NCBI RefSeq assembly: GCF_000724545.1
Contig: NZ_JHBV01000030.1
Coordinates: 124,001 to 188,000, forward strand
Direction of reading: 5' to 3'
From: Aureispira sp. CCB-QB1
Lineage (GTDB): Bacteria > Bacteroidota > Bacteroidia > Chitinophagales > Saprospiraceae
DNA: 64,000 nt
Positions within the stretch are counted from its first letter, which is position 1. Each line of letters opens with the position of its first letter. Both the position numbers and the translations under genes were made by a program. The notes under the pieces are model-generated. The model had not been told where the DNA came from. It did not search any database and saw only the letters and a list, made by a program, of their open reading frames with translations. Shown piece after piece: positions 18,361 through 56,700 of the stretch.

Positions 18361-21300
18361 TTATTTCCCAATAATTTTTCCATTGGGCAACTGGTGTTCT
18401 ACTTTAAATAAAATAAAATCATTCAAGGCATTTTCTGTGCGAGTTGTGGGGTGCTGTTTGCCATCTGTTAACTTAACAACTTGCAATGTAACGTAATCTT
18501 TTAGTTCAGATACATGAACCAATCCATCGTGGTTCCGATCAGCTTCGCCAGAAGTCAGTCCTTCTAGAACAGCATATGTAAAAACCCCATTGTTCCAATC
18601 TTCTGACTCTAGCGCAAATTCATAGCCTCCTGCCGCAGAAATAACCGTTGCTCCCGTTCCTTTTGACACATCGCCAAACAAGGTTTTCATATATGTAAAA
18701 GAATTTTTTAAGCCAGCTTTTGGGCGAACCATTGTCGTTCCTGACTTTTGATTGATATGAACCTTATCATTAGCTGCAATCGACGAGCGTACAACAGCTT
18801 CGTCCTTATCTACTTCACCCGAATGACAAGCATCAATCATAATCAAACGATTTCGACATTCCATTCCATCTAACATCGTATTAATAGCATCGTATGGCAA
18901 ACCTTTGGCTTGTGGATTATTAAAATCAACATCATGCATTGCCAAGTAATAATCTAGCTGGTCATCTAATAATCCGTGAGAAGAAATGTAAATAATTACT
19001 TGATCGTCAATATTGGCTTTGTCCAAAAACTTACTAGCTTTCAGAACATTATCCTTGGTTGCCGACTCGTTAAATAATTCTTGAGTATGAATATTTCCAA
19101 AATAGTTAGAGGTCTTAAATTTAGCGATCAAATCTTTCGCATCCTTGGTGGCAAACTTTAGGTTCCGTTCCTCGTTTTTAAACTCAGAAACCCCTATTGT
19201 AAAAATATATAAATCGGGCTTTTTAGTCGAGTTGGGATGGTAAGTAACCTGAAAAGTCTCTCGCAGGCTTTCTAGCCCTTCTTCATTAAAAACAGATACT
19301 TTAACCAAATTTTTTCCTGCACTTAAACTAATTTCTAACTCTTCTTCTATCTTATTCGTATACCGTTCTTTTAACGAAATTCCTTTCAACTCAGGAGCGG
19401 GAACATCATTGACATAAATAGAAATACGATCTAATTTATGCGTTTCGTCCCAAGCTTTGATATTTAACTTCAACTGTTTGTTTTCTGTCGTAACGGGCAA
19501 TGTAACTTTATTACTCAACTCTATATTAGGCAATGCTAACTCACCTTCTAAATTATCGGGCGTAAACCCTAACTTGCTGAGGCGTTTTTCCCAAGCTTTG
19601 GTATACAGTTTAACCGAATATTTTGAAACACCTAAGCTTGTCAACACCTTATCAGGTCGATTAAATCGAACATCAAATTGATCAAACGAGTATAAATTCT
19701 CCTTAAATCGAAATCCAATTCCTGTATTATTGCCTTTAGATGATTTGTAATAATTATCAGGAGACAAAATAATATAATCAAATTCCTCCATCGCAATCAA
19801 TGAAGCTGCCTCTTGGCAAGATTTTAAATCCCAAACTTTTATAAAACCATCTTCGGCTGTAGAATACACTCGTTTTCCCTTCGCTCCAAACCAAACGAAT
19901 TTAATAGCACCATGATGGCCAGACATGGTACAAACACTCTTTTTGGTTGCCCAATCCCAAACCACAACATCAAAATTCACTTCACTAAAATAGCCTCCTT
20001 GTCCTGTAACTAAAGCCGTTCCATCCTCATTAAAATCTGCCGAAAATAAAATACCTTCTTTGCCTGTCTTAAAAGTATTAGAGATTTCTCCTGTTGTGTA
20101 ATCCCATTCAAACCACGTCATTTCGGCTTTCAAACGCTTGAGATTAGCATCGTATTCTGGTGTCGTTTTGCTAATTAAGACTTTGTTTGTATTTGGTACA
20201 AAATCCAATAAAAATTCATACGCTATTTGTGATGGGATAGTATGAACTTGTTTGCCTGTAGCAACTTCCCATGCTACTATTTTAGAACCATTGGTTTGAG
20301 CAATGATATAATCTCCTCTAGGGCTTAATTTGACACTCTTAAATATAGGCATTTCTGTAGATTTGAAATACACAGCATCTCCTACTTGCTTTTGCGTTTT
20401 AACATCCCATATTCTAAAAAAGAATTGATTGTTTTGATAATTTTTTAAGTCTATCGTTACTTCTTGTGTCAACAATCGACTGCCATCATGGTTAAAAGAA
20501 ATCTCTGTCAAGGCTTCAACTGCTGTACTTTCAAAAATTGGTTGGATTGTTTTGGCATCAAAAACAGTCAAAACAGGCTTTTCCTTGTCTCCGACTACCC
20601 ACGTTCCAAAAACAGAACCATCCGCACTAGCACTAGCAACCCCCGAAGTTTTGATGTACTGCTCCAAATCGCCTTCTTTCATATTCCACACACGAATTCC
20701 TGGAAATTTATTGTACACCGAATTTACCAAGTACTTCGAATTTGACCCTACCGATAGATGAGTAGACATTTTAAAATACCCTTTCAAACGCCCCAATTCC
20801 TTATTGTGCTTAAAATCAAACAATGTTCCTCCCATAAAAACAGTCGGTTGCAAACCATAGCCCTCACTTTCTGTTACCATTCCTGCTACACCTACCATAG
20901 TGTTATCTGGACTAATTGCCAAGTCGAAGGCAACCCCAATACGGTAAACCCCATTTTTGAGCGTTGTCATATCTTGACTAGTTGACTCGTTCATGACTCG
21001 CTTTAACTTGCCTTTTTGAATGCTATAATCTGCAATTGCTCCCGTTCTATCCATTACCAATAGATTTCGATTCGTTGGTGTAAACACCATTTCTATCATA
21101 TTCTGACTAGTATATTCAAAATCCGAAACGACTTTTTGTGTTTCCAAATTCCAAATAGTAATCATCTTATTAGCAATACTAAAACCAGCCACAAACTTCC
21201 CATTGGGACTAACAGCAACATTCATCAAAGCTTGGTCGTGATTAGCAGTCAACGTACCATCAATTGTCTTTGTTTTATAATTATATATAGACAAGGCGTT

Positions 21301-21837
21301 AATTTTGGCAGCATCTCTAGTAATCAGATGTTCTCCATCCTTTGTCAGTCTAATTTCGGTATCTGGAATGGCTCCATGTTTGGTAATTTCGGCGCCTGTC
21401 AAAATATCCAGTTCAACAATTTCACCTCCTTTCATTACAAGCACATGTGTCGTATTAGAGATATAGGTAAACGAACGGGTATACATTTCTAATTTTGTTC
21501 GTTGTACAATCTTTCCTGTTGCATGCTCCCAAGTAATCATCGTTCCTTTGTCGTCTATACTCAAAATATAACGATTGTCTGAAGTGTACTCTACTTTCCA
21601 AACATCTCCAACATGTCCGTACAACACTCTAAATTCTTGGCACAAACTTCGATCCCAAATTCGAACAGTTTTATCCATTCCCGCTGTTACAACAAATCTA
21701 TTATTGGGACTAAAACTAATTGCATATACATTCGCAATATGCCCACTTGTTACGACTATTTCGGGTTTCTCTTGTGCTGTCGTTGTTGTGTTTATGCCTA
21801 ACAAGCCGTATAAGCATATTAATAAAAATAGTTTCAT
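18361..21837 (-). CDS. Secreted WD40-repeat protein with C-terminal caspase (C14) domain
   Basis: This 1,158-residue protein has an N-terminal signal peptide (about 1-21, ending in TAQ). WD40-type blades span about 25-700 (for example VYAISFSPNNRFVVTAGMD with VRIWD, and a late GHHGAIKFVWF with IKVWD). A beta-rich linker follows (about 790-870), then a caspase-like domain (about 890-1145). The catalytic dyad is His954 (ISSHG) and Cys1004 (IDACHSG), both intact. Bacterial caspase homologues cleave after basic or acidic residues, and WD40 domains usually select partners. The natural substrate is unknown. Export from the cytoplasm sets it apart from intracellular cell-death metacaspases. There is no T9SS tail. 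The gene ends beside family A arm fragments. Confidence 0.88.
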   Translation of the reverse strand: MKLFLLICLYGLLGINTTTTAQEKPEIVVTSGHIANVYAISFSPNNRFVVTAGMDKTVRIWDRSLCQEFRVLYGHVGDVWKVEYTSDNRYILSIDDKGTMITWEHATGKIVQRTKLEMYTRSFTYISNTTHVLVMKGGEIVELDILTGAEITKHGAIPDTEIRLTKDGEHLITRDAAKINALSIYNYKTKTIDGTLTANHDQALMNVAVSPNGKFVAGFSIANKMITIWNLETQKVVSDFEYTSQNMIEMVFTPTNRNLLVMDRTGAIADYSIQKGKLKRVMNESTSQDMTTLKNGVYRIGVAFDLAISPDNTMVGVAGMVTESEGYGLQPTVFMGGTLFDFKHNKELGRLKGYFKMSTHLSVGSNSKYLVNSVYNKFPGIRVWNMKEGDLEQYIKTSGVASASADGSVFGTWVVGDKEKPVLTVFDAKTIQPIFESTAVEALTEISFNHDGSRLLTQEVTIDLKNYQNNQFFFRIWDVKTQKQVGDAVYFKSTEMPIFKSVKLSPRGDYIIAQTNGSKIVAWEVATGKQVHTIPSQIAYEFLLDFVPNTNKVLISKTTPEYDANLKRLKAEMTWFEWDYTTGEISNTFKTGKEGILFSADFNEDGTALVTGQGGYFSEVNFDVVVWDWATKKSVCTMSGHHGAIKFVWFGAKGKRVYSTAEDGFIKVWDLKSCQEAASLIAMEEFDYIILSPDNYYKSSKGNNTGIGFRFKENLYSFDQFDVRFNRPDKVLTSLGVSKYSVKLYTKAWEKRLSKLGFTPDNLEGELALPNIELSNKVTLPVTTENKQLKLNIKAWDETHKLDRISIYVNDVPAPELKGISLKERYTNKIEEELEISLSAGKNLVKVSVFNEEGLESLRETFQVTYHPNSTKKPDLYIFTIGVSEFKNEERNLKFATKDAKDLIAKFKTSNYFGNIHTQELFNESATKDNVLKASKFLDKANIDDQVIIYISSHGLLDDQLDYYLAMHDVDFNNPQAKGLPYDAINTMLDGMECRNRLIMIDACHSGEVDKDEAVVRSSIAANDKVHINQKSGTTMVRPKAGLKNSFTYMKTLFGDVSKGTGATVISAAGGYEFALESEDWNNGVFTYAVLEGLTSGEADRNHDGLVHVSELKDYVTLQVVKLTDGKQHPTTRTENALNDFILFKVEHQLPNGKIIGK

Positions 21838-25694: not shown

Positions 25695-27434
25695 ATGAAA
25701 TTAATATACCTAGCCGTTCTCTGTCTATTACTAACCACCAACCACCTCCTCGCGCAGCAAACGTGGCATAAATGTGGTTTTGACCATGCGATTTATCAAT
25801 TAGAACAACAACACCCTGGTTACAAACAACATATTGATGCTGTTTTTGATGAGTCGAACCGAATAGGGCAACAAACCCAACACAGTCGCTCCATTCATAC
25901 AATACCTGTTGCGGTTCATGTTGTTTGGAAAACGCCCAACGAAAAACTATCTGAATGTACCATCAACGAACAAATAGAAATTCTAAACGACGACTATCGT
26001 CGTCAAAATGCAGATGCCAGCAATTTGCGTCCTATCTTCAATAGCATCGCTGCTGATACAGAGATAGAGTTTCGTTTAGATACGATTATCTGGACACAAT
26101 CTAATGTAGACTTTGCTAGCTTAGGTCCTTTTGGAGGACTGTTCCCCGACCCCACTTCTATTGATAGTGTCAAAGGAACAAGCCCACCTTTAGATCCTGA
26201 TCAATATCTAAACATTTGGACGCTTAATTTGGGTTCTGGTGGTCTATTGGGCTATGCTTATCCTCCTGATAGTTTACCCAATTGGCCAGCAGGAGCATCA
26301 GCACCTAGCAAAAACAGAGAAGGCGTTGTGCTTCATTACGAAATCGTTGGAGGACCTAGAAGTGTTACTTTTGGAGGTGGTTTTGGCGCTCCAACAACCG
26401 TTAATACACAAGGCAGAACCGCTGTTCATGAAGTTGGGCACTACTTAGGATTGCGCCATATTTGGGGCGATGGTGCTGGCGGTGGAATTTTTCCTCAACC
26501 AAGCTGTTCTGTTGATGATGGTATTGGTGATACTCCAAATTGTTTGGATCGCTCTGAATTTGATTGTGATACCACCAAAAACAGTTGTGATACAACATTA
26601 GTCAACGATATGCCCGACATGATAGAAAACTATATGGATTATTCTGCTGAATCGTGTATGAATAGTTTTACCATTGGGCAAAAAAATCACATGAAAGGAG
26701 TTTTAAATGGTCCTCGTTCAGGTTTGTCAACTACTCCTGTCAAAATCCGCCCTGCTTACGATGCTATTTATCACGCTGAAGTATTAGCCGTTAATACAGG
26801 CAGTAGCTGCACTAGTATTTTTACGGCAACCAATATGAATGCTTCCGCCTCTATGCCTGATGCTCCTTGTATGGGAACCATCGCCAATGATGTTTGGTTT
26901 TCCTTTACCGCTACTAGCTCTGACTTACTTTTAGAAGTTTCTAATATTAACAATATTACAGGCAGTTCTACTGCTATGGCTTATGAATTATTTGAAGGAG
27001 CTTGTGATAGTTTGAGTAGTTTAGGTTGTGGCAACGCAGGCAACAATGCGTTATCTGGTTTGACAACAGGTGCTGTTTATTACCTTAGAATTTATAGCAT
27101 GAGCACAGCAGATAGCCACAACTTTGATATTTGTCTGCGTAACAACAACCTTGTAGCAGTAGATCAAATTGAGCAAATTCTAAGCCGAGGTATTCACTTA
27201 TCTCCTAATCCTACATCTGGTGATATTAACATTAATATTGATAATAACATCAGCTTTGAAGGCTTCCTAAGCATTAAAAATGTTTTAGGTCAAGCTATTA
27301 CACCACCTGTAGCGATTGACAATCACAATCGTCAATACACCCTTTCACTAACCAACGAAAATAGTGGTTTGTATTTAGTTGAAATCCGAATGAATAACTA
27401 TACCATTACTAAAAAGGTTATTCTTCAAAAGTAA
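25695..27434 (+). CDS. Secreted M43 (pappalysin/cytophagalysin) zinc metalloprotease with T9SS tail
   Basis: This 579-residue protein has a signal peptide of about 20 residues (HLLAQ). The M43 catalytic domain (about 60-335) carries the metzincin zinc motif HEVGHYLGLRH (His245, Glu246, His249, His255) and the Met-turn-like ENYMDYS. Cysteines around it (CSVDDGIGDTPNC) match family disulfides. A beta-sandwich (about 355-490) resembles the domains that often follow such peptidases. The last 80 residues form a type A T9SS sorting domain (LSPNPTSGDI, then SGLYLVEI and a basic end KKVILQK). The enzyme should therefore be exported through the outer membrane. It is followed by its own terminator. Confidence 0.92.
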   Translation: MKLIYLAVLCLLLTTNHLLAQQTWHKCGFDHAIYQLEQQHPGYKQHIDAVFDESNRIGQQTQHSRSIHTIPVAVHVVWKTPNEKLSECTINEQIEILNDDYRRQNADASNLRPIFNSIAADTEIEFRLDTIIWTQSNVDFASLGPFGGLFPDPTSIDSVKGTSPPLDPDQYLNIWTLNLGSGGLLGYAYPPDSLPNWPAGASAPSKNREGVVLHYEIVGGPRSVTFGGGFGAPTTVNTQGRTAVHEVGHYLGLRHIWGDGAGGGIFPQPSCSVDDGIGDTPNCLDRSEFDCDTTKNSCDTTLVNDMPDMIENYMDYSAESCMNSFTIGQKNHMKGVLNGPRSGLSTTPVKIRPAYDAIYHAEVLAVNTGSSCTSIFTATNMNASASMPDAPCMGTIANDVWFSFTATSSDLLLEVSNINNITGSSTAMAYELFEGACDSLSSLGCGNAGNNALSGLTTGAVYYLRIYSMSTADSHNFDICLRNNNLVAVDQIEQILSRGIHLSPNPTSGDININIDNNISFEGFLSIKNVLGQAITPPVAIDNHNRQYTLSLTNENSGLYLVEIRMNNYTITKKVILQK

Positions 27435-27926: not shown

Positions 27927-30362
27927 ATGAGACAGAACTTACATTATTTACTTTGCCTAATAGTAGGAATAGGTTTCTGGCTACCCACGGCAGAAGCTCA
28001 ACTAGTTAACTATGAAGAAACTTGGCAAGAATTTTTAAAAAATCCCAAAACTTCTGCCATTAGTAAACTAACAGAACCCAGCAAAGAACAGGTAGCTAAT
28101 TATTTGAAATACTGCTTGATGTATGCCAATTCGTATTTTTGCGCCGATGACCTGACGCAATCCGAAAAAATGATGCGAGAAGTAGCTGCTATTAGTACCG
28201 AAGCACATGCTAAAATTCCTGGCTTTACGGATAAGTACGAAGACCTAAAAACTAAAATTGCTGCTTACAAAGCTTGTGGTAAAATTTGGGTTCGCTTCCT
28301 CGATGGAGAAAGCATTGACATTGCTGAATTGGAAAAAAATGAAGTAAAAGATGCTAAAACTGTTTGTGAAAAAGGAACGCTTTGTAAGTACTTTTACATG
28401 ACTGCCATGCATTATTATTGTCAAGGTGATTTGAAAAAATCTAGAGGACATTTTGAAAATCGTGTCCAAAAACTAGTAGATAAAACGTCTTTTGAGCCCA
28501 AGGACGTAACAGGAATGGATGAACGTGTGAAAATGATGAAAAAACTTTGGGCTGGTATTGACAAACTAGATCCAGCATGGGAAAAGTTAATTGAAACGGA
28601 CAAATCTCCTGGTTTTGATACAGAATTACCACTCATTGAATGCTATTCGATTCCTAATATGAAAGAGTATATTCTCAAAGCTACGGCTGATCTGTGTGGC
28701 CTAGGAGATGAAATGCTCAAAAAGATTAAAGCACTTCAAAAAACCAATACGCATCCTATTCCTTCGGATGTAGCAGATAAAATTGAATGGTTAGAAAAGG
28801 CTGTTGCTGAAAATAATGACGGCTTAGCTACCTTAAACAAAGCGTGGAAAAAATTCTTGCCAGAAAGCAAACCTAGTGGAATCGACTATGGTCATGAGTT
28901 TGTATGCGACAGAGCAGCTGAGGTAAAAGCCTATATCATGGATGGATATGCAGATCCTTGTGGTGGTGGAAAAGCGGCTTTGGACAAAATTGAAGCCATA
29001 AAAAAGGAACACAATCCTTCTTTAGATACTGAAACAATGACTAAGTTGAAGCAATTGAAGGCTAGAGTTAATAAAGAAGCTGAAAATCTTGCGAAATTAA
29101 ATGAGGCTTGGGAAGATTTTGTTCCTGATGATAAAATCAAAGGCAAAATTAATTTTGTGTTTGAGTACTGTGACAAAGAGGCTCAAGTAAAAGCTTATGT
29201 CATGGATGGAACAATTAATTTCTGTGAAAAAGGAAAAAGTCGTTTAGAAGATATTGCTAAATTACGTGATAGCGATAACCCTGAATTGGCAGATGCTGTG
29301 CTCAAAAAAATTGATAATCTACAAGCTAAACAAGACGAGTCTGACCAAGACTTAGCAGATTTGAACAGTGCATGGGAATTGTATACCAGCACCGACAAGA
29401 CAATGGAATGGCAAGAAGGTTTCCCTCAAAAAGATACAGGAACCGTGCGTGATAACATTCGTTTGGTAAAATTCTATTGTGATAAAATTGCTCAAACTAA
29501 ATCTTGGGTCATCAAAGGTCATTTAGATCCTTGTGAAAAAGGCGATGCTTACTTGGCTAAAATTAATAAACTAAAAAAAGAAGCCAATCTGAAGTACGAC
29601 AAAGAATTGGCTTGTCAAGTTAGCCGTTTGAAATCAAAGGTTTATCAATGTAAGTATTGGGCTTTGGTACTAAAAGCTTGGAAAATCACTTACGAAGAAT
29701 GTGAACGTTTTGGTCCTGCCTCCTCTAAAATTATGTACGAAGACCTTAACTCGGAAGAACAGCCTTGCGAAACAACGGTTGAGTACAAACAACTCGGTAA
29801 AATTGGTATTCAGTATACCATTACTACTTTCCTTTGCCAAAAAATTAACTTGGCTAAAATGGGTGATCCTGAGTATTACAAAAAAATTGCTACTTGGGTT
29901 GATAATGAAGTTTTGAGCAAATATTGTGAGGCCAATATGCGCTGTAAAGAGGATTTTTATATTTATCTAGAAGGGCATACCGATGGAAATCGTTTTTCTG
30001 GTCGTAGATATGATAATTCTTTAGACATCCCTGAGGGTACACCTTATACGCACTTTGTTGGAAAAAGCAGTGGTGCTGTCGATACCTTGAAAAAGGAAAC
30101 TCGTAATATCACCACCGATTTAAAATCTAATATGGAATTGGGAATTGCTCGCGCTTGGACGGTAAAACAACAATTAGATTTTATGAAAGTTCCGATTACG
30201 GTAGGAGCTTATGAGCATCCTTCTAGTGAAAAAGGAGGTGAATTCCGTCGCATCGAAATTGAATTGAATATTACCAATTTGATGTTGGATTTCTATGAAA
30301 AAACATTAAAAGAATTAGTAGAAGAATCAGGTATTGGTAACCGTCCAAAACTAGGTTGCTAA
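27927..30362 (+). CDS. Cysteine-repeat surface protein 1 with OmpA-like C-terminal domain
   Basis: This 811-residue protein has a signal peptide (about 1-25, ending AEAQ) and an N-terminal domain of about 200 residues rich in aromatic and Cys residues (ETWQEFLKNPKT, CEKGTLCKYFYM). Four repeats of about 88 residues follow, each with CD-x16-C (C-x17-C) and typically KAYxMDG plus AWEDFxP. The C-terminal region (about 640-800) has LEGHTDG and ELGIARAWTVKQQLDF, then EFRRIEIELN, the layout of an OmpA-type peptidoglycan-binding domain with an insertion of about 45 residues. No described family is recognised for the repeats. I infer an envelope-anchored, disulfide-stabilised rod. It is the first of three tandem paralogues. 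Confidence 0.75.
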   Translation: MRQNLHYLLCLIVGIGFWLPTAEAQLVNYEETWQEFLKNPKTSAISKLTEPSKEQVANYLKYCLMYANSYFCADDLTQSEKMMREVAAISTEAHAKIPGFTDKYEDLKTKIAAYKACGKIWVRFLDGESIDIAELEKNEVKDAKTVCEKGTLCKYFYMTAMHYYCQGDLKKSRGHFENRVQKLVDKTSFEPKDVTGMDERVKMMKKLWAGIDKLDPAWEKLIETDKSPGFDTELPLIECYSIPNMKEYILKATADLCGLGDEMLKKIKALQKTNTHPIPSDVADKIEWLEKAVAENNDGLATLNKAWKKFLPESKPSGIDYGHEFVCDRAAEVKAYIMDGYADPCGGGKAALDKIEAIKKEHNPSLDTETMTKLKQLKARVNKEAENLAKLNEAWEDFVPDDKIKGKINFVFEYCDKEAQVKAYVMDGTINFCEKGKSRLEDIAKLRDSDNPELADAVLKKIDNLQAKQDESDQDLADLNSAWELYTSTDKTMEWQEGFPQKDTGTVRDNIRLVKFYCDKIAQTKSWVIKGHLDPCEKGDAYLAKINKLKKEANLKYDKELACQVSRLKSKVYQCKYWALVLKAWKITYEECERFGPASSKIMYEDLNSEEQPCETTVEYKQLGKIGIQYTITTFLCQKINLAKMGDPEYYKKIATWVDNEVLSKYCEANMRCKEDFYIYLEGHTDGNRFSGRRYDNSLDIPEGTPYTHFVGKSSGAVDTLKKETRNITTDLKSNMELGIARAWTVKQQLDFMKVPITVGAYEHPSSEKGGEFRRIEIELNITNLMLDFYEKTLKELVEESGIGNRPKLGC

Positions 30363-30451
30363 GCCCCTTCTTATACAATTCTAATCGTTTTTGGGCACTG
30401 TTCGTGTCTCCTTTTTTGAGAAAAGAAACGATTGGTAACACAATAATATTG

Positions 30452-30496
30452 AGAACGTTCATGTTAACTTTATGTTGATATGGACGTTCTATTTTT
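30452..30496 (+). terminator. Terminator of cysteine-repeat gene 1
   Basis: AGAACGTTCAT (30452-30462) pairs with ATGGACGTTCT (30480-30490), with one G-T pair, and ATTTTT follows. Confidence 0.7.
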
Positions 30497-30712
30497 GGAG
30501 ATTATTTGTTTTGGATGCTTTTATAAATTGCCTTGTCTCCCAATTTCAAAGGGTCAATAACATGCTTTGGTAGAAGCCCATAGAACCTTTTTTTTATATT
30601 TTTATGGCTCTAAAAAATTTTTTGGGTTGGTTCTTGTATAAGATAAAGTGTTTTATTTTTTATCAAATCATAAAAACTATTTCTAATTTTTAGTCTCTCA
30701 ACTTTCAAACAT

Positions 30713-30852
30713 TACTCCGTTGAAAAATCGTATCAGTTTGATTATCAGCAAGATGTACTTTTATTGACTTTTATACTAAAAGACTGATAATCAAACTAAT
30801 GCAAGATACTTTTTTACGTTTTTCGTAGGAAAACTAAAAAATCAACGGAGTA
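30713..30852 (+). repeat. Family A 140-bp nested palindrome, copy A3
   Basis: Outer arms TACTCCGTTGA (30713-30723) and TCAACGGAGTA (30842-30852) are perfect. The inner arms are at 30734-30748 and 30784-30799. It is almost the same as copy A6 without its insertion. It lies in the 590-bp spacer before cysteine-repeat gene 2; the rest of that spacer holds only the terminator. Confidence 0.85.
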
Positions 30853-30952
30853 TTATTCAAATAAACTCTATTCTAACAAACATCATAAGCACTTGTCTAA
30901 AAAACGATTCTTATTTTTAGAGATGCTTTAAAACACACAGACTATTATAATT

Positions 30953-33184
30953 ATGATTTTGAACAAATATCTTTTAACAGTATGCTCTTTAGCTTTGCTG
31001 ATTTCATTGCCACAGTTTTCTCAAGCTCAGCAATTGGTCAATATGGAAGAAACTTGGCAAGAGTTTTTGAGCAACAAAAAAACGGCTAATATTTCTAAAT
31101 TGAAAAAGCCAGATAAGTCTCAACCTGCTAATTATATCAAATATTCTTTGATTTATGCCAATACCTACTTTTGTGGTGATAATATCGAAAGTGCGGAGGA
31201 AATGATTCACGAAATAGAAGCTATGGGCAAAGAAGTCTGGGATCGTGTTCCTGGATTTGAAGAACGTTATTTGGGCTTAAAAGAAAACATGAAGGCTTAT
31301 AGAGCATTGGACCCTATTTGGGAAAAATTCTTAAATAACAAAACAAGCGTTTCAAAAGAAGAAGTGGAGGCACATCCCGAAGCCAAAAAGATTTGTGAGC
31401 GAGGAACATTGTGTAAGTACTTTTATATGATTTCGCACGATTACTTCTGTCAAAAAGATTTAGAAAAAGCAAGAGATGTTTTTGATAGTCGCATTCGTAG
31501 GCTTGTAGCAACAACTTTTAATCCCAATGATATAGAAGGATTGGGCGAGGAAGTAGAGCGCATGACACAGTTTTGGGATGCAATGGATGAATTAACTCCT
31601 GCTTGGGAAGCTTATATCGAAACAGGTATTTCTCCTGGCATGCAAGCCGAAATGCCTGTTATTGATTGTTATGTTATTCCTAATATGAAAGCCTGTATTC
31701 TTAAAGCTACTTATGACATTTGTGGCGTTGGAGAAAAAATGTTGGACAAACTCAAAGAGTTGCAAAAGAAAAGCACTTACCCAATTCCTTCTATTATTAT
31801 TGATAAAATGGATTTCATCGAAGAAGAGGTGCGCAACATCAAAAAAGATTTGGCGATTGTCAATACCTATTGGAAAAAATTTACACAAACAGGCAATCTG
31901 CCTAGCGATGTTGCTTACAAATATGTCTTTGCTTGTGATCGTGAAGCAGAGGTCAAAGCCTATTTGATGGATGGCTTAATGGATCCTTGTAGAAAAGGGA
32001 AAGAGGCGTTGGAAAATATTTCTAAAGTGCGCAAAGAACACAAACCTGCCCTTGCTTCATTGACCATGGAAAAACTCAAAGAACTCAAAGCGGCTGTAAG
32101 TGTGAGTAGTGGCGACGAAACGGTCTTAAACGACGCTTGGGAAGATTTTTTACCCGATGATGCTCTTTCCAAAAATTATGACTTGGCATTTGAATATTGT
32201 GATAAACTAGCAGAAATTAAAGCGTTTATTATTGATGGAACCATTCATGTTTGTGAAAAAGGACAACAACGCTTAGACGATATTGAAAATGTTTTAGATG
32301 AAAATGAGGTAACGATAGATTCGGAAACACAAGCGAAATTGGATGCTTTGGAAGCCAAATCTAGTAAGTTAAATGCTAAACATGAGGTTCTCAATAAAGC
32401 TTGGGAGTATTTGTTAGCTAATGATGAGGTTAGCGATAATTATGAATATGATTATGAATTTCCTTGTAATCGAGAAATGGATGTTAAGGCCTACCTACTA
32501 GATGGTTACACCAACCCTTGTTTGAGTGGTAAATATGGCTTGACTGAAGTAGATAAAGTCATGTCTAAACACAATCCTAAATTAAGCGATGAAACATTAG
32601 CACAAATAAAAAAATTACGCAGTAGATTGTCCAACGAAGGAGGCAATGTTGCCACGTTAACCAAAGCTTGGGAAGATTTTGTTCCTGACAATAAACTCTC
32701 TGGAGAAATTAATTTCATCTTTAGTTACTGTGATAAAATTGCCGAATGCCGTGCTTATATCATGGATGGAATTATCAATTTCTGTGACCGTGGCGAAAAA
32801 CGTCTCAAAGATATTACCCAGTTGAGAGAAGATTATTTATTGACACTGGATCAAATCATGGAGGATAAATTAGAAATTTTGTACAAAATGGTTGAAGAGG
32901 GTAAACCAGGTTTAGAAGGTTTGAATAAGGCTTGGAACACCTGTATTAGTATGGATGACTTTTCTAAAGTAGATCAGCGTACAATTAAATTAGCAGAGGT
33001 CTATTGTGATCCGATCTCACAAACTAAAGCATGGGTAATGAAAGGCTTGATGAACCCTTGTAAAGAAGGACAAATTTACTTATCTAAGATTGATTACCTA
33101 AAGCGAAAAGAAGCTGTCAAATACGGAGATGAATTGGATTACCAAGTAGAATTGTTGCGGGTTAATATTGGTAAATGTCCGTAA
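30953..33184 (+). CDS. Cysteine-repeat protein 2, lacking the OmpA-like domain
   Basis: This 743-residue paralogue has a signal peptide (about 1-26, ending SQAQ), the same N-terminal domain (ETWQEFLSNKKT, CERGTLCKYFYM) and six C-x17-C repeats. It stops just after the sixth repeat, at a Cys-Pro end that aligns with a conserved Cys of the longer paralogues. The C-terminal domain of about 200 residues is absent, and no remnant lies in the 213 bp before the next gene, so I read this as a natural form and not a recent frameshift. Without the OmpA-like part it would lack its own wall anchor; it could instead be a soluble partner of the other two. Family function unknown. Confidence 0.72.
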   Translation: MILNKYLLTVCSLALLISLPQFSQAQQLVNMEETWQEFLSNKKTANISKLKKPDKSQPANYIKYSLIYANTYFCGDNIESAEEMIHEIEAMGKEVWDRVPGFEERYLGLKENMKAYRALDPIWEKFLNNKTSVSKEEVEAHPEAKKICERGTLCKYFYMISHDYFCQKDLEKARDVFDSRIRRLVATTFNPNDIEGLGEEVERMTQFWDAMDELTPAWEAYIETGISPGMQAEMPVIDCYVIPNMKACILKATYDICGVGEKMLDKLKELQKKSTYPIPSIIIDKMDFIEEEVRNIKKDLAIVNTYWKKFTQTGNLPSDVAYKYVFACDREAEVKAYLMDGLMDPCRKGKEALENISKVRKEHKPALASLTMEKLKELKAAVSVSSGDETVLNDAWEDFLPDDALSKNYDLAFEYCDKLAEIKAFIIDGTIHVCEKGQQRLDDIENVLDENEVTIDSETQAKLDALEAKSSKLNAKHEVLNKAWEYLLANDEVSDNYEYDYEFPCNREMDVKAYLLDGYTNPCLSGKYGLTEVDKVMSKHNPKLSDETLAQIKKLRSRLSNEGGNVATLTKAWEDFVPDNKLSGEINFIFSYCDKIAECRAYIMDGIINFCDRGEKRLKDITQLREDYLLTLDQIMEDKLEILYKMVEEGKPGLEGLNKAWNTCISMDDFSKVDQRTIKLAEVYCDPISQTKAWVMKGLMNPCKEGQIYLSKIDYLKRKEAVKYGDELDYQVELLRVNIGKCP

Positions 33185-33233
33185 AATTTCTCTCTTTAGA
33201 ATCCTCATTTTTATGTACTCCAAAACTAAATAT

Positions 33234-33277
33234 AGAACGTCTGCACAGATTGTCTTGTGTAAGGCGTTCTTCATTTT
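33234..33277 (+). terminator. Terminator of cysteine-repeat gene 2
   Basis: An imperfect stem (33234-33247 with 33256-33270) with AGAACG/CGTTCT outer pairs precedes a T-rich tract. The outer sequence resembles the terminator after gene 1, consistent with duplication of the gene plus its 3' end. Confidence 0.6.
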
Positions 33278-33397
33278 TAAGCAAAAAATCATTAATTTTA
33301 AGAAATCCCCAAGCTTTTTTTATGCTAAAATTGCTTTGGGTGTCTAGAGATAGATATACACCAATACCATATCCATTTTACAAAACAACATAAAATT

Positions 33398-36361
33398 ATG
33401 CATTCAAATCGACTATTTTTAGTTCCTTTTCTTTTGAGTATCGGATTGTTACTACCGAACTACATGCAAGCGCAGTTGGTCAACATGGAAGAAACTTGGC
33501 AAGAGTTTTTAGGCAATCAAAAAACATCGAATGTATCCAAGTTGGTGAAGCCTGAGAAATCTCAACCAGCCAACTATATCAAATACTCTCTGATGTATGC
33601 CAACTCGTATTTTTGTGCTGATAATCTTCCTAGTGCCGACAAAATGATGCGAGAAATTGAGTCCATGGGCACGGCTGTCCAAGACAAAGTCCCAGGGTTC
33701 AAGGAGCGTTATGAATTAATGAAGGTAAAAATTAAAGCATATAAAGACTTGGTTCCAATTTGGCAACGCTTCTTAAATGACAAAAGCAGTGTGACGCGCA
33801 AAGATATTGCAGCCGTTCCAGAAGCCAAAACGGTTTGCGAAAAAGGAACGCTTTGCAAGTTCTTTTATATGACGGCACATGCTTACTATTGTGAAGCCAA
33901 CCTTAAAGATGCGAGAAATCATTTTGAAAACCGTGTTTTGAAATTGGCTAAAACAAGTTTTGATCCGAAAAGTGTCGAGGGATTAAATGAGGAAATTGAA
34001 ATGATGAAATCCCTCTGGGCAGGTATTGATGCGCTCAATCCTGTATGGACTAAGTTTATAGAAACCGATCAGTCACCAGGTTTTGAAACAGACATTCCTG
34101 TCATTGGTTGCTACACGGTTCCCAATATCAAAGTTTGTCTTTTAAAGGCTGCTGCTGATTTTTGTAATACAGGTTCCGAAATGTTGGCCAAGATCAAAGA
34201 GCTTCAAGCTAGTATGTCGCATGATGTGCCTGGAGATGTGGCGGATAAGATAGCATGGTTGGAAGCAGAGGTCAACAAAAGTGATCAAGGTTTAGCCAAT
34301 TTAAATAGTATTTGGGCTAAATTTACACCAAAAGAAAAATTGCCTAGTGGTGCTCAATACGAGCATGTATTTATTTGTGATCGTTCCGCAGAAGTAAAAG
34401 CCTATTTAATGGATGGCTTGAGCAATCCTTGTACAGAAGGTCAAAATGCCTTGGATAGCATTGCAAGAATTCGCAAAGACCACCAACCTTCTTTGGATGA
34501 TGTCACCACCTCTAAGTTAAAGAAGCTTAAAAATTTGGTTAGCAATGAAGCAGCAGAATTAACTAAATTAAATAAAGCTTGGGAAGATTTTTTACCAGAC
34601 AATAAATTATCTGGTAAAGCTGACTTTGGATACGAATATTGTGATAAAGCAGCTGCTGCCAAAGCTTATACAATGGATGGGATTCTAAATATCTGTGAAC
34701 GGGGTCAACAACGTTTGGACGACTTGGAAAAACTCAAAGCAGAATATAGCCCTGAATTAACTTCTAAAACAACTGCTAAGATCGACTTTTTGCAAAAAGA
34801 GGTCGCTCGATTGACGCAAGAAGCCGCTGATTTAAAAAAGGCTTGGGACTATTTGCTAGCTAATAAAGAGGTTAGCAAAGACTTAGAATATGAACACGAA
34901 TTTATATGTAATCGTGAAGGAGATGTACAATCCTACCTTTTAGACGGATTTACCAATCCTTGCCAAAGTGGTCAATATGCTTTGGACGAAGCGCAGAAAG
35001 TAATTGATAAATACAATCCTAATTTGAGTAGTGCCACTCAAACTCAATTGAACCAACTCAAAGCTCGATTGAAAAATGAAAATCAAAACTTGGCGCAACT
35101 TAATAAGACTTGGAAAGACTTTGTGCCAGACGAAAAGTTGTCTAGTGACTTGGATATTGTGTTTGAGTATTGTGATAAAATTGCTCAAGCTCGTTCCTAC
35201 ATCATTGATGGTACGGTTAATTTCTGTGAGAAAGGAGAACAGCGTGTCAAAGATATTTACAAACTTAGAGAGGACTATTTATTGACTTTAGACAGCGAAA
35301 CGGAAGACAAATTAGAAAGTTTGGAAAACAAAGTTAAACAAGCGGCAAAAGATTTAGAAGATGTCGGCGCTGCTTGGGATTTGTATGTTGCCACAGATAC
35401 GATTATGTCTTGGACAGAGGGGTATCCTGCTGTTGATACTGTTGTCCGTCACCAAATTCGTTTGGTTGATTTCTATTGTGATAAAATCGCTCAAACCAAA
35501 TCTTGGGTCATCAAAGGGTTGTTGGATCCTTGTGAAAAAGGAGATGCTTATTTGGCAAAAATCAACAACCTAAAACGCAAACATGGTTTGTCTTATGATA
35601 ATGACTTAGCCTGTCAAGTTCGCCGCTTAGAAGGGAAAGCTTATCAGTGTAAATACTGGACGCTTGTGCGTGAAGCAAGGCGTGTGACCCACTTAGAAAG
35701 AGAAACCTTTGGTCCTAAGTCTGCTCAAATTATGTATGGAGAATTAAACTCTGACAAACAACCTTGCGAAACAACAGTTGAATACGAACCATTGGGATAT
35801 ATTGGTGTTCGTTATATCGTGGCTCCTCACTTATGTCAAAAAACAAACTTGGCTAAAATGGGTGATCCTGAGTATTACAAAAAAATTGCTACTTGGGTTG
35901 ATAATGAAGTCTTGAGCAAGTATTGTGAAGCTAGTATGCGTTGTAAGGAAGATTTTTTCATTTATTTGGAAGGGCATACCGATGGCTACCGTTTTTCTGG
36001 TCGCAAGTACGATCAATCGTTGGATATTCCCGATGGCACTCCCTATACACACTTTCTAGGAAATAAAGATGGTACAGTAGATACACTTCAAAAAACAACT
36101 CGTCACATTACTCGTGAGTTAAAGTCAAATATGGAATTGGGTATTGCTCGTGCTTGGACAGTAAAATCACAATTGGATTTTATGAAAGTACCTATTACTA
36201 TTGGGGCGTATGAACATCCAGAAACAGAAAAAGGGGGTGAATTTAGAAAGATTGATATTGAACTAAACATCACGAATCTATTGCTAGACTTTTATGAAAA
36301 AACATTAAAGAGACTGGTCAAAGAGTCGGGAATTGGGGAACGTCCTTCTTCGGGCTGCTAG
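33398..36361 (+). CDS. Cysteine-repeat surface protein 3 with OmpA-like C-terminal domain
   Basis: This is the longest paralogue (987 residues), with a signal peptide (about 1-26, ending MQAQ), the shared N-terminal domain and six repeats with the C-x17-C pair. The OmpA-like C-terminal domain spans about 815-975 (LEGHTDG near residue 857, then ELGIARAWTVKSQLDF and EFRKIDIELN). It differs from gene 1 mainly by two extra central repeats. A 65-nt stretch in the C-terminal part (35846-35910) is identical to gene 1 (29847-29911), more alike than the surrounding sequence, which suggests gene conversion or strong constraint. I infer an envelope-anchored protein of unknown role. It is followed by a strong terminator. 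Confidence 0.75.
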   Translation: MHSNRLFLVPFLLSIGLLLPNYMQAQLVNMEETWQEFLGNQKTSNVSKLVKPEKSQPANYIKYSLMYANSYFCADNLPSADKMMREIESMGTAVQDKVPGFKERYELMKVKIKAYKDLVPIWQRFLNDKSSVTRKDIAAVPEAKTVCEKGTLCKFFYMTAHAYYCEANLKDARNHFENRVLKLAKTSFDPKSVEGLNEEIEMMKSLWAGIDALNPVWTKFIETDQSPGFETDIPVIGCYTVPNIKVCLLKAAADFCNTGSEMLAKIKELQASMSHDVPGDVADKIAWLEAEVNKSDQGLANLNSIWAKFTPKEKLPSGAQYEHVFICDRSAEVKAYLMDGLSNPCTEGQNALDSIARIRKDHQPSLDDVTTSKLKKLKNLVSNEAAELTKLNKAWEDFLPDNKLSGKADFGYEYCDKAAAAKAYTMDGILNICERGQQRLDDLEKLKAEYSPELTSKTTAKIDFLQKEVARLTQEAADLKKAWDYLLANKEVSKDLEYEHEFICNREGDVQSYLLDGFTNPCQSGQYALDEAQKVIDKYNPNLSSATQTQLNQLKARLKNENQNLAQLNKTWKDFVPDEKLSSDLDIVFEYCDKIAQARSYIIDGTVNFCEKGEQRVKDIYKLREDYLLTLDSETEDKLESLENKVKQAAKDLEDVGAAWDLYVATDTIMSWTEGYPAVDTVVRHQIRLVDFYCDKIAQTKSWVIKGLLDPCEKGDAYLAKINNLKRKHGLSYDNDLACQVRRLEGKAYQCKYWTLVREARRVTHLERETFGPKSAQIMYGELNSDKQPCETTVEYEPLGYIGVRYIVAPHLCQKTNLAKMGDPEYYKKIATWVDNEVLSKYCEASMRCKEDFFIYLEGHTDGYRFSGRKYDQSLDIPDGTPYTHFLGNKDGTVDTLQKTTRHITRELKSNMELGIARAWTVKSQLDFMKVPITIGAYEHPETEKGGEFRKIDIELNITNLLLDFYEKTLKRLVKESGIGERPSSGC

Positions 36362-50459: not shown

Positions 50460-50704
50460 CTAAGAATACAACTGCATCGTTAATTCATCTGAAGGTCTTC
50501 TCAATTAAATAAGCTCCCTCAGCAATGTAACTCATACCATGCAGCAGCATAGTCAACAAATTACTAAACTAAAGTAAGTCGACAGAAAAGAATAAGTACT
50601 AGCCACATTGCTAATTACTAACGAGGTTGTATGAGCGCACACTACTCATTCGTCGTTTTTATTCATTTTCTGAGCAATTATTTACCTTACACAAAACAAT
50701 TTTC

Positions 50705-53700
50705 ATGAAACACTTTTTTTACATCTTACTCCTTTCCTGCCTATTAGAACCTACATGGGCAACTACTTTCGTAGTGACGAATTTAAATGACGCAGGCGCG
50801 GGCTCCTTGCGACAAGCTATCTTAGATGCCAATGCAGATGGCTCTGCCACATCAGGCAGCCCGCATCTAATCAATTTTTCTGTAGCAGGACAAATCAACA
50901 CGGCTTCAGCACTGCCCACGATTAGCAACCATATTACTATAACAGGTCAAACTTCGGGAAATACAATCTTTCGGGTTTCTACCAATCCCAATTACCGTTT
51001 GTTGCATATTAATGGTACCGTTACCGTCACTCTTAATCACCTAACGCTACAAGGAGGAGACTCTGGAGGATCAAATCCTGGTGGTGGTATTCTTAATACA
51101 GGAGGAACATTAACCTTAAATAATTGTGTCCTAGAAGATAATCGTTCTGGCAACTCATCAGGAGCTCACGGTGGTGCCATTAGTCATTCAGGAACACTAT
51201 TCATCAATAATTCTACTCTAAAAAACAATACTGCTGGATCTCTAGGTAGAGGTGGTGCCCTCAATATGGAATCGGGAACAGCAACGTTGACCAATTGCAC
51301 CATTCATGGAAATGCAAGTGGCAATAATGGTGGAGGAATTTTTGCCAATAGCACCTCAACCTTAAATCTAATCAACTGTACAATTGTTGAAAACAACGCT
51401 TCTAGTAATGATGGCTTTTCAAGTGGTGGTGTGTATTATCATCAAGGAGTACTAAACATGACCAACACCATCTTGGCAAATAATACTTATACCGCATCGG
51501 GGACATTAAATAGAGATATTAATTCATTGGCACCAACTTATACAGGAACCAACAATCAAAATATTGTCGAAGTTTGTGCAGGTTTCAATGCGAGCTTTTG
51601 TCCTTCTGTTAGCTTCTTTTCTAACGCAGATCCAAACTTGGCAGCCGTCAGTCAGTGTGGTTTGCAAGACGTTTTTCGTCCCAATACTGGTTCTAATGCC
51701 ATTAACAATGGAACAACAGTAGGCGCACCGCCAAGTGATATTTGTGGTACAACTTGGTTTGGCAATCCTGAAATTGGAAGCGTAGAATCTGTCAATCCAG
51801 CAACGGCACTGGACTTTGATGGAACCAACGATTTTGTCGATGTAAGCACTCCTTTTACTGCTTATACCAATGAAATTACAGTAGAAGCATGGATTAATGT
51901 ACAGTCGATCACTGCTAGTGGTACTGGTTTGGGGCAAGCCACTGCTAACGTTGATAATATGAGTTCTAATGTTTGGCTTTTATCACTCAACCTAGACAAT
52001 ACGATTTCCTTTTTGATTAACGATGGAGGAACATTTAGGACAGCCAAATCAACTACTGCTATTAATGGAACAGGTTGGCATCATGTGGTCGGCGTTGCAA
52101 GCCCAACAGAAACGGCAATTTACGTTGATGGCAACAAAGAAGCTACGTCAACTGGTATTAGTACGGCTATTCAGAACAATGCTAGTGCTAGTTTGCATCT
52201 TGGAAAAGATGTCCGTTATTCAACAGGGCGCTTTTTTGATGGACAATTGGATGAAGTCCGTATTTGGTCTGAGGCACTTTGTGCAGCCAAAGTTACAACT
52301 AGAAAAGACTGTCAATTAATTGGTAATGAACCTAATTTGGTACATTACTACAACTTCAATCAGGGAGAAGCTGGTGGCGCTAATGGAGCAGAAACAACCT
52401 TATTCGATCGCCAAACTAATATTGGGGCTCAAAACGGTACTTTAAATGGCTTTGCACTAAACACTGCTACCTCTAACTGGATCGATGGTTCGTCTAATGG
52501 TGTTGCTGGAAATTGCTCTTCTGCTTTTCCCGAAATTGACGTTTTAGGAAATGGTGTATCTATTACCAACAACGATGCTACTCCTTCTTTAGCCGACCAC
52601 ACCGATTTTGGTGGTGCAGACCCTGCTTCGGGAACAGTCGTCAGAACGTTTACAATTGACAATACAACTGGTACAGGCACTTTGAATGTAAGCAGTATCT
52701 TCAACACCAATACAGGTGAATTTACAGTAGGGGGCATTACATTTCCTGCGGCTATTCCTGTTGGAGCATCTACTACGTTTACTGTTACTTTTGACCCTAC
52801 TTCTTTGGGCTTAAAAAGTGCTACCTTAATTGTTGTTAATGATGATTGTGATGAAAATAATTACATCTATTCTATTCAAGGAACAGGAGTTGTTTTAGAA
52901 GAAATTGCGATTACTGAATGGTTGACCAATCCATCAGGAACCAATACACAAGAGGAATGGATTGAAATTTACAACTATGGTAGTACTCCTGTTGATTTGC
53001 AAAATTGGCGCATCAAGGACGAAGATGGCAATGATGCTGTTCTTACAACCTCTAGTTATGTTATCCCTGTTGGTGGCTATGTTGTTATTGCTAACAATAA
53101 AAGCAACTTTGAATCGCTATGGTTCAATGGTTGTCCCAAATCTGAAGTATTAGAAGTCGCCAATTTGGAATTAGACAACCTTAGTGATGAAATCATTTTA
53201 GAGAATAGTGCAGGTTCAATCATTTGGTCGGTCGCTTATAACAATGATGCTACAATAGGACGCGCAACATTTTATACAGAAAGTCCAACTTTTACAAATA
53301 GAACTTGGGGAAGCAAAGCGGCTCCTGGCATTGTCCGTAACGGAAACGATATTACAGGTTCATTAGGCTATCAATCCAATAACAACACTGCTGATCCAAA
53401 TGTTTTTGCAGCCACAAATGGCGACATGGGAAGCCCACTTAACATCGTGGTTAATATCCCTGATTTAGTGCGAGGCAATACGTTATCTTTTGATGGAGTC
53501 GATGACTTTGTCGATATTCCTGATCATAATTTATTTGATGTTACTGCCGTAACGATTGAAGCTTGGGTGTATTGGACAGGCTCAGGTACAGACGTTGAAT
53601 TTATTACTGCCAAGGCTGGTGAAGAATTAGAAATTCACACAGGAGGAGGAGCTGGAGCAAATTCTTTGCGTTTCATCCCGACATCTGCTGTTTATTTGGA

Positions 53701-56700
53701 TGCCCCTACTGGAAGTTTTGTTCCCAATCAATGGAACCACATTGCCTGTGTTTACGACCCTAGTGTTTCTTTTGGAGAAATTTATATCAATGGAATTGCA
53801 ACAGGTGCGGTTAATAATGGTGCCAATCCCTTAAACTCTCCTATAACAACCAGTGCTACAAATTTTAGATTGGGTGCTCGTGCGAATAATTCAGCATTTT
53901 TAAATGGTCAAATTGACGAGGTTCGATTCTGGAATCGAGCACGCTCTGCAAGCGAAATTAGAGCGCAAATGCATTTAACCTTAACAGGCTGTGAAACAGG
54001 TATTCTTGCGTATTATCAAATGAATGAAACAACAGGAAATACAACCTTATCCGATAAAATAACAGGCAATAATGGTACCTTAACGAATATGAATGCTGGA
54101 AGTGTATGGACAAGCTCTGGTGTGAATGTCGGCAATGATCTTGCGGGAAACTCTAACAGTCAAACCTTAAATGTTCCTGCTGGAGTTAGCAATCAGAATT
54201 TTGGAGCTGCTAATCTGAATATCAACTTTACAGCACACACTTCTAATGAGGATATTACCGTTACTTATCAAGCCTTTAATCCCAATAGCATTGCCCCTGC
54301 AATAGGAACTGTTCACAGAAATCCAATGTGGACAATCAATACCTCTACGAATACAACAAGCTATACAGGTGATTTACAATTTACCTATCCTGTCGCTACC
54401 TTATCTGCTGCCTACGCTTGTAATTTTAAATTATACCATCGTCCAATGGGAAGTGATGGCAACTGGACAGAACTTAGCACAACAGTTAGTAGCTTCTCTC
54501 CGACTACTGTTACATTTGAAAATGTCTCTTTGACAGGGCAATTTATGGTAGTCGAAACGGCTGACACGGATTTATCTAGAAACAATACATTAGAGTTTGA
54601 TGGCACAGATGACTTTGTTAATGTACCTAACAATAGCTTGTTTAATGTACCTGCGGTTAGTATCGAAGCTTGGGTATATTGGACGGGATCAGGTGCTGCG
54701 GTAGAGTTCATCACGGCTAAAGCCACTGAAGAATTAGAAATTCATACAGGCGGTTCGGGGGCTAATTCCCTGCGGTTTATTCCTACTACAGCTGTATACT
54801 TAGATGCTCCTACAGGAAGCTTCCTTCCTAATCAATGGAATCACATCGCCTGTGTCTACGACCCTAGTACGTCTTTGGGTGAAATTTATATCAATGGGAT
54901 TGCAACAGGTGCGGTTAATAATGGCGCCAATCCTCTGACAACTCCTATTACAACTAGTGCCACTGACTTTAGATTAGGTGCTCGTTCTGATAATAGTTCG
55001 TTTTTTAATGGTCGATTGGAGGAACTTCGCTTGTGGAACCGAGCACTTTCACCTTCTGAGATTCGAGAACGAATGCACCTAACCTTAACAGGCTGCGAAA
55101 ATGGCATTCAAGCTTATTTCCAAATGAATGAAGCTAGTGGAGCTAGTACTTTAACAGACAAAGTTGGCTTCAATGATGCCACCTTAACTAATTTTAATGT
55201 TGCTTCTGCTTGGGTTGGTTCTGATGTAAACGTAGGCAATGACTTGGCTAATAATTCTAACAGCCAAACTATTACAAATGCCAATACTGGGATTTTCAAT
55301 TTTAATAATGCCAATCTAGAAATGGAAATTGTTGGGCATAGTGCCGCTGAAGACTTTACAGTTACGTATCAAAATTTTGCCCCCAATGCAGTCAGTGGAA
55401 TAGATGGGGTTACCTTGTATCAAAATCCAATGTGGACAATTAACAAATCAACTGCCACCACAACCTTTTTAGCCAATTTAGAATTTAGATACCCTTCGGG
55501 AACATTTACTACAATAGATCCTAAAAAATATGCTCTATACTGGCGACCAATGCATGCAGGAGGCAATTGGACAAAACTAGATGTTGCTAGAGGAATGACA
55601 GCTTCTACCATTCGTTTTGGTAGTATCGCATTGACAGGGCAATTTATGGTTGTTATGGAATCTGAAGCTTTAGTTTCTGATGTTCGTGGTAATATGTACG
55701 CTATTAGTGAAAATGGAGAACATATTTCTTGTCCTGGCGTTGATTTATCCAATACGTCTTTTACCATAGAACTTTGGGCTAAAAGAAATAGCACTACTAC
55801 CGAAGATCACTTCTTTGGTCAAGGTACAGGAGCCTTGCAATCAGGACTTCATGCTCGTTATAATAACAATGGAACTATTTCGTTTGATTTCTTTTTGGAC
55901 GACTTGACTCTGCCTACAACTGCTGCAACAGATGGAGAATGGCATCATTTGGCCTTTGTTTATAATGCTGTAAGCCGTCAACGAGAAATCTTTGTCGATG
56001 GAATCTCTATTGGAACTGATATTGCTGGAGGCAACTTTAGTGGTGCTCCTGGAATGAATATAGGTGGTCATATTCCTACCGCTGCTGCTGGAAACAACTC
56101 TATGGATGGTGCTATCGACGAGTTTAGAATATGGAATACCGTTCGTACGCAAGCAGAAATTCGAGAAAATAGACACCTAACGCTAAAAGGTAATGAAACA
56201 GGTTTATTATCTTATTATCAATTTAATAACGATAATTTAGTCGGCACTGTTAATGGTGTCAAAGATGCTGTTGGTGGCAATCATGGTACTACTCAAAACA
56301 TGACGGCAACAGATTATATAAAATCAGAAGTTGCGGTAGCAGGTGGAACCTCCGATCGCATTACTATTGGCGCAGGAGGTGTTTACACGTTTCCTAATAC
56401 AGGGATTGAAATTGAATTTGGCGCAACCACCCCTAATGGTGAATTGGTTGTTTCTAGATTAGAAACTGAAGAGCCACATGGTGCGGGAACCCTATCTGGT
56501 GATGTTGATAATGAATATTTTATTATTAACAACTATGGTAGTAATACAACGTTTAGTCCGTTGATTGATTTGACGCTCAACCGCATGAGTTATATTGCTC
56601 CTGTAGATGCTGCAGAGCCACAAGCTAGTTCTCCTTTACAATTGTACAAACGTCCTTCCAACGCTTTTGGAGGAACTTGGGGCGCAACTTTAGGTGGAGC

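Follow-up and report, generated by a model that had tools for sequence, protein, structure and literature searches.

Putative periplasmic scaffold proteins built from a cysteine-paired helical repeat in Aureispira and related Saprospiraceae

The union of helical repeats with a wall-binding domain in one protein has a precedent in PorE. In the part of the published study drawn on here (PMC7192894), PorE has TPR together with OmpA_C-like domains, and its proposed role is to link the type IX secretion system (T9SS) to the cell wall. According to the same part of that study, the side chains of its Asp576, Asn584 and Arg591 form hydrogen bonds with peptidoglycan (PMC7192894).

Here we analyzed a window of 64,000 nucleotides from the genome of Aureispira sp. 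CCB-QB1 (contig NZ_JHBV01000030.1, positions 124,001 to 188,000), in which three neighbouring genes, P1, P2 and P3, encode large exported proteins with cysteine-paired repeats (Table 1). We propose that their products are paralogous periplasmic scaffold rods, that is, cysteine-stapled alpha-solenoids, of which P1 and P3 would be tethered to peptidoglycan; we consider the case for this reading to be evenly balanced.

Gene organisation and repeat architecture

The P1, P2 and P3 frames are intact, mutually homologous and arranged in tandem on one strand, with P1 sharing 63% and P2 51% identity with P3. The original prediction of three consecutive exported proteins of 811, 743 and 987 residues agrees with these open reading frames, each of which has a signal-like start. 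A search of the 7.37 Mb genome of the same strain at E <= 10 returned no copy beyond the three. P1 and P2 are separated by 590 bases (30363-30952), and the gap between P2 and P3 is shorter (213 bases). A terminator-like stem of 17 pairs with a T run lies in the first gap, and another of 15 pairs is found 3' of the upstream M43 protease gene. Terminator-like sites in the region are no more frequent than expected (six, against a mean of 5.2 in shuffled sequences), so that the length of the stem is the one feature suggesting that P1 could form a separate transcript.

Table 1. Features of the P1-P3 locus, with positions counted from the first letter of the window
Feature	Position	Strand	Description
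P1, 811 aa	27927..30362	+	Signal peptide, 6 repeat units (2 divergent and 4 canonical), OmpA-like domain, conserved tail
P1 canonical units, residues 213-585	28563..29681	+	C-x17-C at 239, 327, 415, 518
Terminator-like 17-pair stem and T run	30452..30490	+	3' of P1, in the P1-P2 gap
P2, 743 aa	30953..33184	+	Signal peptide, 8 repeat units; without OmpA-like domain and without conserved tail
P2 canonical units, residues 214-742	31592..33178	+	C-x17-C at 239, 328, 416, 505, 593, 685
P3, 987 aa	33398..36361	+	Signal peptide, 8 repeat units, OmpA-like domain, conserved tail
P3 units 1 and 2, residues 30-212	33485..34033	+	Divergent repeat copies; HMM matches 30-97, 118-167
P3 canonical units 3-8, residues 213-761	34034..35680	+	C-x17-C at 238, 327, 415, 504, 592, 694
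P3 OmpA/MotB-like peptidoglycan-binding fold (predicted), about residues 790-960	35765..36277	+	Modelled beta-hairpin insertion 882-900
P3 C-terminal tail	36278..36358	+	Helix, then GIGxRPxxC; kept in short members without OmpA domain

Successive C-x17-C pairs are spaced 88-89 residues apart, save before the last unit, where the spacing is 103 (P1), 92 (P2) or 102 (P3) residues. Past the N-terminal part there are four (P1), six (P2) and six (P3) pairs in register, and one extra pair within that part (C147-C165 in P1 and P3, C148-C166 in P2) brings the totals to five, seven and seven. The same arrangement holds across a set of 49 family proteins, which comprises the 35 of alignment A2 and 14 of the 29 parsed from 30 further loci (none could be parsed from L131); the remaining 15 were left out since their start and length equalled those of proteins already in the set. 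Both cysteines are kept in 189 of the 193 strong units from these proteins and the spacing is exactly x17 in 186, which bears out the proposed strictly spaced pair. One step of the analysis took in 47 of the 49 proteins (two P3 orthologues were omitted) and discarded three of the 47, in which exact C-x17-C pairs numbered fewer than three. The repeat HMM was built from 145 units, all past residue 200; the canonical units of P1-P3, which were among its input and score 75-113 bits, are thus matched by a profile derived partly from themselves. Canonical units share 16-44% identity within one protein and 38-72% at the same position between paralogues, so the repeat array is older than the gene triplication.

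The original prediction had counted four, six and six repeats behind a shared N-terminal domain. Those counts are right for the part past the N-terminus, and two units per protein had been missed: the N-terminal region is common to P1-P3, but it is not a separate domain, and both the HMM and, in P3, AlphaFold2 resolve it into two divergent repeat units. These in-phase units are individually weak in P1-P3 (about 1-10 bits with an HMM that contains no N-terminal units). At a threshold of at least 3 bits, unit 1 is nevertheless detected in 48 of the 49 proteins and unit 2 in 47, against 15 of 980 shuffled N-terminal segments that reach 3 bits anywhere. Unit 2 of P1 is the weakest, at 1.1 bits, yet it carries C147-x17-C165. 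In the P3 model, units 1 and 2 have the same three-helix layout as the canonical units (helices 57-73, 77-90 and 101-127, followed by 149-165, 169-184 and 196-223). With in-phase N-terminal units above the shuffled controls, P1, P2 and P3 come to six, eight and eight units.

Predicted fold and database searches

The AlphaFold2 model of P3, made from 35 alignment rows, has a mean pLDDT of 85.2 and a pTM of only 0.42, which leaves the overall curvature of the rod uncertain; a three-unit P3 model from 44 rows reaches 92.9 and 0.73. The canonical unit is predicted to consist of helices of about 14, about 19 and about 31-34 residues, in that order, with one cysteine of the pair just before the first helix and the other where the two short helices meet. 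From these positions, a C-x17-C disulfide would staple the helical hairpin. Structure prediction thus returned three-helix units stacked into a helical rod or solenoid and no known enzyme fold. An enzyme of known fold hidden within the repeats would have to fit among units of this kind, with no other domain before residue 790 in the P3 model and no standout enzyme match in either sequence or fold searches; we disfavour this explanation as extremely improbable.

The original prediction assigned the repeats to no described family, and our searches agree. No credible match to the repeat was returned when P1-P3 and the family alignments were searched against Pfam, NCBIfam and PDB sequences; in profile searches of PDB sequences, the best E values were 0.07 for alignment A5 and 0.037 for A2, and A3 gave none. 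Among TPR profiles, only TPR_MalT matched, at 12.6 bits in P3 against a cut-off of 45. Foldseek searches of PDB with the P3 and three-unit models gave no match at E <= 0.001, which is not proof of a new fold. When the three-unit model was compared with solved folds, the best match was to NprR (Z 8.6), with an rmsd of 19.0 over 163 residues, and matches spanning the whole model had rmsd values of about 14 to 24. Local TPR-like matches extended over about 90 residues at about 3-4 A with Z values of 6-6.6. This resemblance, the best Z of 8.6 included, falls in a range that the comparison tool calls common among helical repeats. None of the papers listed by the literature searches deals with this repeat family, as judged by title or abstract. 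As far as the databases and literature searched show, the cysteine-repeat family looks like a real and undescribed one.

Several database matches were examined and set aside. A B3 DNA-binding match was found in five of 35 members (best E 2.1e-6) and an IQCJ-SCHIP1 match in three; both are limited to few members and are regarded as chance matches across repeat boundaries. Eleven other Pfam families, including Lectin_N and spectrin, each matched a single member of the 35 and are likewise attributed to chance, and such matches on P1-P3 themselves were all under the family cut-offs. Matches in PHROGs, of P3 to tail proteins (best 4e-4) and of P2 to proteins of unknown function (5e-3), look like long-helix matches.

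Export and the C-terminal domain

In every one of the 35 rows of alignment A2, and in all 49 proteins of the larger set, the first residue past the signal peptide is a glutamine; the residue before this glutamine is A, S or N in 48 of the 49 (T in L072). This invariant residue fits the Q-rule for signal peptidase I (SPI) substrates of Bacteroidetes, as given in the parts of two studies drawn on here (PMC5837995, PMC10653852), and points to Sec/SPI-type export. There is no lipobox in P1-P3, where glutamine rather than cysteine follows the signal peptide. Searches with Pfam and NCBIfam for a T9SS sorting domain (PF18962, TIGR04183) found none in P1-P3, and none was found in 35 family members with Pfam at E <= 0.01. 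Given a Sec/SPI-type signal with neither sorting domain nor lipobox, P1-P3 are, as judged from their sequences, most likely periplasmic and not surface-exposed.

A link to surface structures, adhesion or gliding, as first proposed, is therefore not upheld, the same searches having matched the neighbouring M43 protease. Under that explanation, P1-P3 would be surface adhesins or gliding components that cross the outer membrane, by the T9SS for instance, and function extracellularly, a possibility to which their large size and repeats and the adjoining T9SS cargo protease (PF18962 and TIGR04183 matches, 25695-27434) might point. We judge it improbable: beyond the missing sorting domain in P1-P3 and in the 35 members, the OmpA-type end, which would bind the wall, puts P1 and P3 on the inner side of the outer membrane, and three related Aureispira loci (L062, L064 and L075) have, upstream of P1, not the protease gene but one for an ABC transporter (identified as such in L062). 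Elsewhere in the window, a 2250-residue protein (50627-57379) carries several LamG-type lectin domains, a lamin-tail domain and a T9SS sorting domain, and is a better candidate surface adhesin than P1-P3.

The C-terminal part of the P3 model resembles OmpA- or MotB-type domains, which make up eight of the best ten structural matches, the four best having Z values of 9.3 to 10.3. It aligns with PA0833 at Z 10.3 (rmsd 2.9, 127 residues aligned) and with MotB at Z 9.8 (rmsd 5.5, 139 aligned) and Z 9.7 (rmsd 3.8, 148 aligned). All 19 C-terminal sequences compared keep counterparts of the Asp, Asn and Arg of the PorE triad, and the Asn to Arg spacing is seven as in PorE; among the 30 OmpA-bearing proteins of the 49-protein set, one (L151) carries Glu in place of the Asp. 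The distance from Asp to Arg is 56 residues in P3, compared with 15 in PorE, which implies that about 41 residues are inserted between Asp and Asn, beside the ligand pocket. The OmpA-like end with an insertion between the GHTD and ARA parts, reported for two of the three proteins, is accordingly present in P1 and P3 and missing from P2. As the insertion splits the motif, the PF00691 profile misses this domain, and P1 and P3 are absent among its 56 matches in their own genome. Like this miss, a profile comparison with 12 OmpA domains, 12 of 30 OmpA loci having been placed in frame, speaks against the assignment: it aligned only 23 columns, around the Asn and Arg (probability 69.6, E 4e-5 for that comparison alone). 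The C-terminus of P1 and P3 is predicted to be a peptidoglycan-binding domain of OmpA/MotB type, the binding following from the modelled fold and the conserved triad.

Of the 56 PF00691 matches in the genome, 53 are over the cut-off, and one frame of 894 codons on contig C27 has three such domains. Another Aureispira genome encodes a 483-residue protein (L076:9103-10554) with a signal-like start and a distant OmpA-like domain that has the same style of insertion; its similarity is low (E 1.6e-9), and no repeat match is among those listed for it.

The short forms of the family (about 510 aa, five units) end in a tail like YEKRL...GIGxRPxxC, which is found after the OmpA domain in other members. 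The tail probably matters in its own right, since it is kept by short forms that have no OmpA domain.

Distribution, end cysteines and comparison with known systems

With a 16-row profile, the family was found in 59 of 398 Saprospiraceae genomes and in 25 of 112 genera, two of the matches (G442 and G550) being weak and partial. In a phylum-wide sample of 395 genomes the Aureispira genome alone was matched, and the ten matches in an order-wide sample of 298 genomes were all from Saprospiraceae. The repeat therefore extends beyond its genus, with no match outside Saprospiraceae in these samples.

This distribution bears on the possibility that P1-P3 are accessories of an envelope machine, such as the T9SS, a BAM-like complex or cell-wall synthesis, and that, like PorE or LpoA, they serve one specific partner and are no general spacers. 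PorE, with its TPR and OmpA_C-like domains, provides a precedent in the part of the study drawn on here (PMC7192894), and the LpoA N-terminal domain (Z 6.4) and a BamCD complex entry (Z 5.8, rmsd 11.3) are among the structures that the repeat resembles. However, these Z values are in the range common among helical repeats, the P3 model contains no beta-propeller or CRD-like part, and the patchy presence in 59 of 398 genomes argues against a need for the family in a machine universal to the group. We regard this as possible, though rather unlikely.

Gene neighbourhoods were clustered for 26 loci (20 stretches, the window and five further loci). Outside Aureispira, no neighbouring gene recurs in place, and the undescribed "system" that the original prediction had envisaged loses its footing here; the few gene families found in two or more of these loci lie at differing distances, and most look common by eye (ATPases, acetyltransferase-like proteins and histidine kinases). 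Within Aureispira, an endonuclease/phosphatase-like gene occurs near family genes in seven loci; four loci have genes for a LolC/E-like permease and a small protein there. Upstream of P1, the three loci with the ABC transporter gene contrast with the window, which has the M43 protease in that place. A subtilase gene lies 336 bases from a family gene in L077 and 1.9 kb away in Aureispira L074, and was not taken as a partner because two loci are too few. On the opposite strand of the window, positions 18361-21837 (-) encode a WD40 beta-propeller protein ending in a caspase-like (Peptidase_C14) domain.

The OmpA domain is absent from 19 of the 49 family members, P2 included. Its presence requires three changes on the tree of the 49 proteins, the root of which is not fixed; if the domain was ancestral, there were three losses, in the Aureispira P2-type proteins (seven), in a clade of 11 short forms and in one G028 protein. 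Wall anchoring is therefore not needed family-wide. The proposal of rods anchored to peptidoglycan is thus favoured for P1 and P3 by the helical rod model and the OmpA-type end, and does not extend to P2 or the other 18 members. In one Aureispira sequence (G005:C7:24432-24759; loci L039, L060 and L121), a P2-type gene has beside it what is left of a P1/P3-like C-terminal domain, interrupted by several stop codons; the copy with the OmpA domain thus seems to have been lost in one lineage of Aureispira.

The conserved pairs (189 of 193 units) are a disulfide-type feature, and C-x17-C disulfides are plausible on this basis. Oxidases known to support disulfide formation were sought in the same genome with less success: VKOR (PF07884) and DsbB (PF02600) gave no matches, an unrecognised oxidase being possible, and one match to the DsbA fold was found. 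Three of 40 relatives gave a PF07884 match, and the family is present in two of these three. The original description of the rods as disulfide-stabilised is accordingly plausible from the conserved pairs, and the lack of a VKOR or DsbB match counts against it.

Cysteines outside the pairs raise the question of whether the rods are coupled to one another. The main short clade is made up of 11 short forms. Six of them have 12 mature cysteines, ten of which fall into five local pairs (four of the C-x17-C or C-x18-C type and one C-x11-C); the two left over, C72 of unit 1 and the C-terminal cysteine, lie at either end of the rod. One extra cysteine is present in each of the remaining five short forms. 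If the single unit 1 cysteine (C72/73) of one molecule were bonded to the C-terminal cysteine of the next, a disulfide-linked polymer could arise, in the form of long fibres or a belt bound to the wall. The exact pairing of the six short forms speaks for such a polymer, as do the presence of the terminal cysteine in 42 of the 49 proteins and the persistence of the tail where the OmpA domain is absent. Several observations oppose it. The number of cysteines is odd in 14 of the 30 OmpA-bearing forms, and the seven proteins without a terminal cysteine are P2-type, three of them (652-653 aa) lacking any cysteine close to the C-terminus. P1-P3 carry more cysteines that are unpaired by position (in P2: 74, 154, 248, 599, 664 and 742), so that their rod ends are not singled out, and neither VKOR nor DsbB was found in their genome. 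Polymerisation of this kind seems quite unlikely to us. Its fuller version, a Saprospiraceae-specific periplasmic polymer of cysteine-stapled rods coupled head to tail, some of them held on peptidoglycan by an OmpA domain with a lid and together forming an envelope skeleton, is very improbable. The two end cysteines of the short forms do offer a simple, testable prediction on polymerisation.

We return to the reading of P1-P3 as periplasmic scaffold rods. The proteins would be exported by Sec and signal peptidase I, and the mature chain would consist mostly of in-phase units of about 88 residues, each a TPR-like hairpin of short helices plus one long helix. A C-x17-C disulfide would most likely staple the two short helices together at their starts. 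In P1 and P3, the OmpA/MotB-type domain after the rod would bind the diaminopimelate part of peptidoglycan and so fix the rod to the wall, while P2 would be a free, unanchored version. The faces of the solenoid might bind or space other envelope proteins. From an anatomy that rests on prediction and conservation, we infer the disulfides, wall binding, partner binding and scaffold role.

At present, P1-P3 represent a protein family of putative function. The literature searches returned little on the Saprospiraceae envelope. If the proteins are wall-bound scaffolds, they would provide a handle on how the periplasm is organised in Aureispira and its relatives. The findings also add an undescribed repeat family and a variant of the OmpA domain with an insertion beside the peptidoglycan pocket.

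Compared with known systems, the repeat comes closest, if loosely, to TPR and TPR-like alpha-solenoids such as NprR, Rap, LGN and the LpoA N-terminal domain, stacks of helical hairpins of a kind that the modelled units may also form. The TPR is a two-helix motif of 34 residues, whereas the unit described here has 88 residues, a cysteine pair and three helices, the longest of about 34 residues. The P3 C-terminus shares its modelled fold and ligand triad with OmpA/MotB domains such as those of PA0833 and MotB, but it has about 41 extra residues between Asp and Asn, modelled as a beta-hairpin, to which PF00691 is blind. PorE of the Porphyromonas gingivalis T9SS, as described in the part of the study drawn on here (PMC7192894), is also periplasmic, with N-terminal helical repeats, a C-terminal OmpA_C-like domain and the same Asp, Asn and Arg triad. 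In that description PorE is a lipoprotein with TPR, beta-propeller and CRD parts (PMC7192894), whereas P1-P3 have no lipobox and the P3 model no propeller. The family described here differs further by its 88-residue cysteine-paired repeat and the insertion in the OmpA fold. By analogy, our best reading is that P1 and P3 may work in the manner of PorE or MotB anchors while belonging to neither: the family would be new and the kind a known one, a peptidoglycan-tethered helical scaffold.
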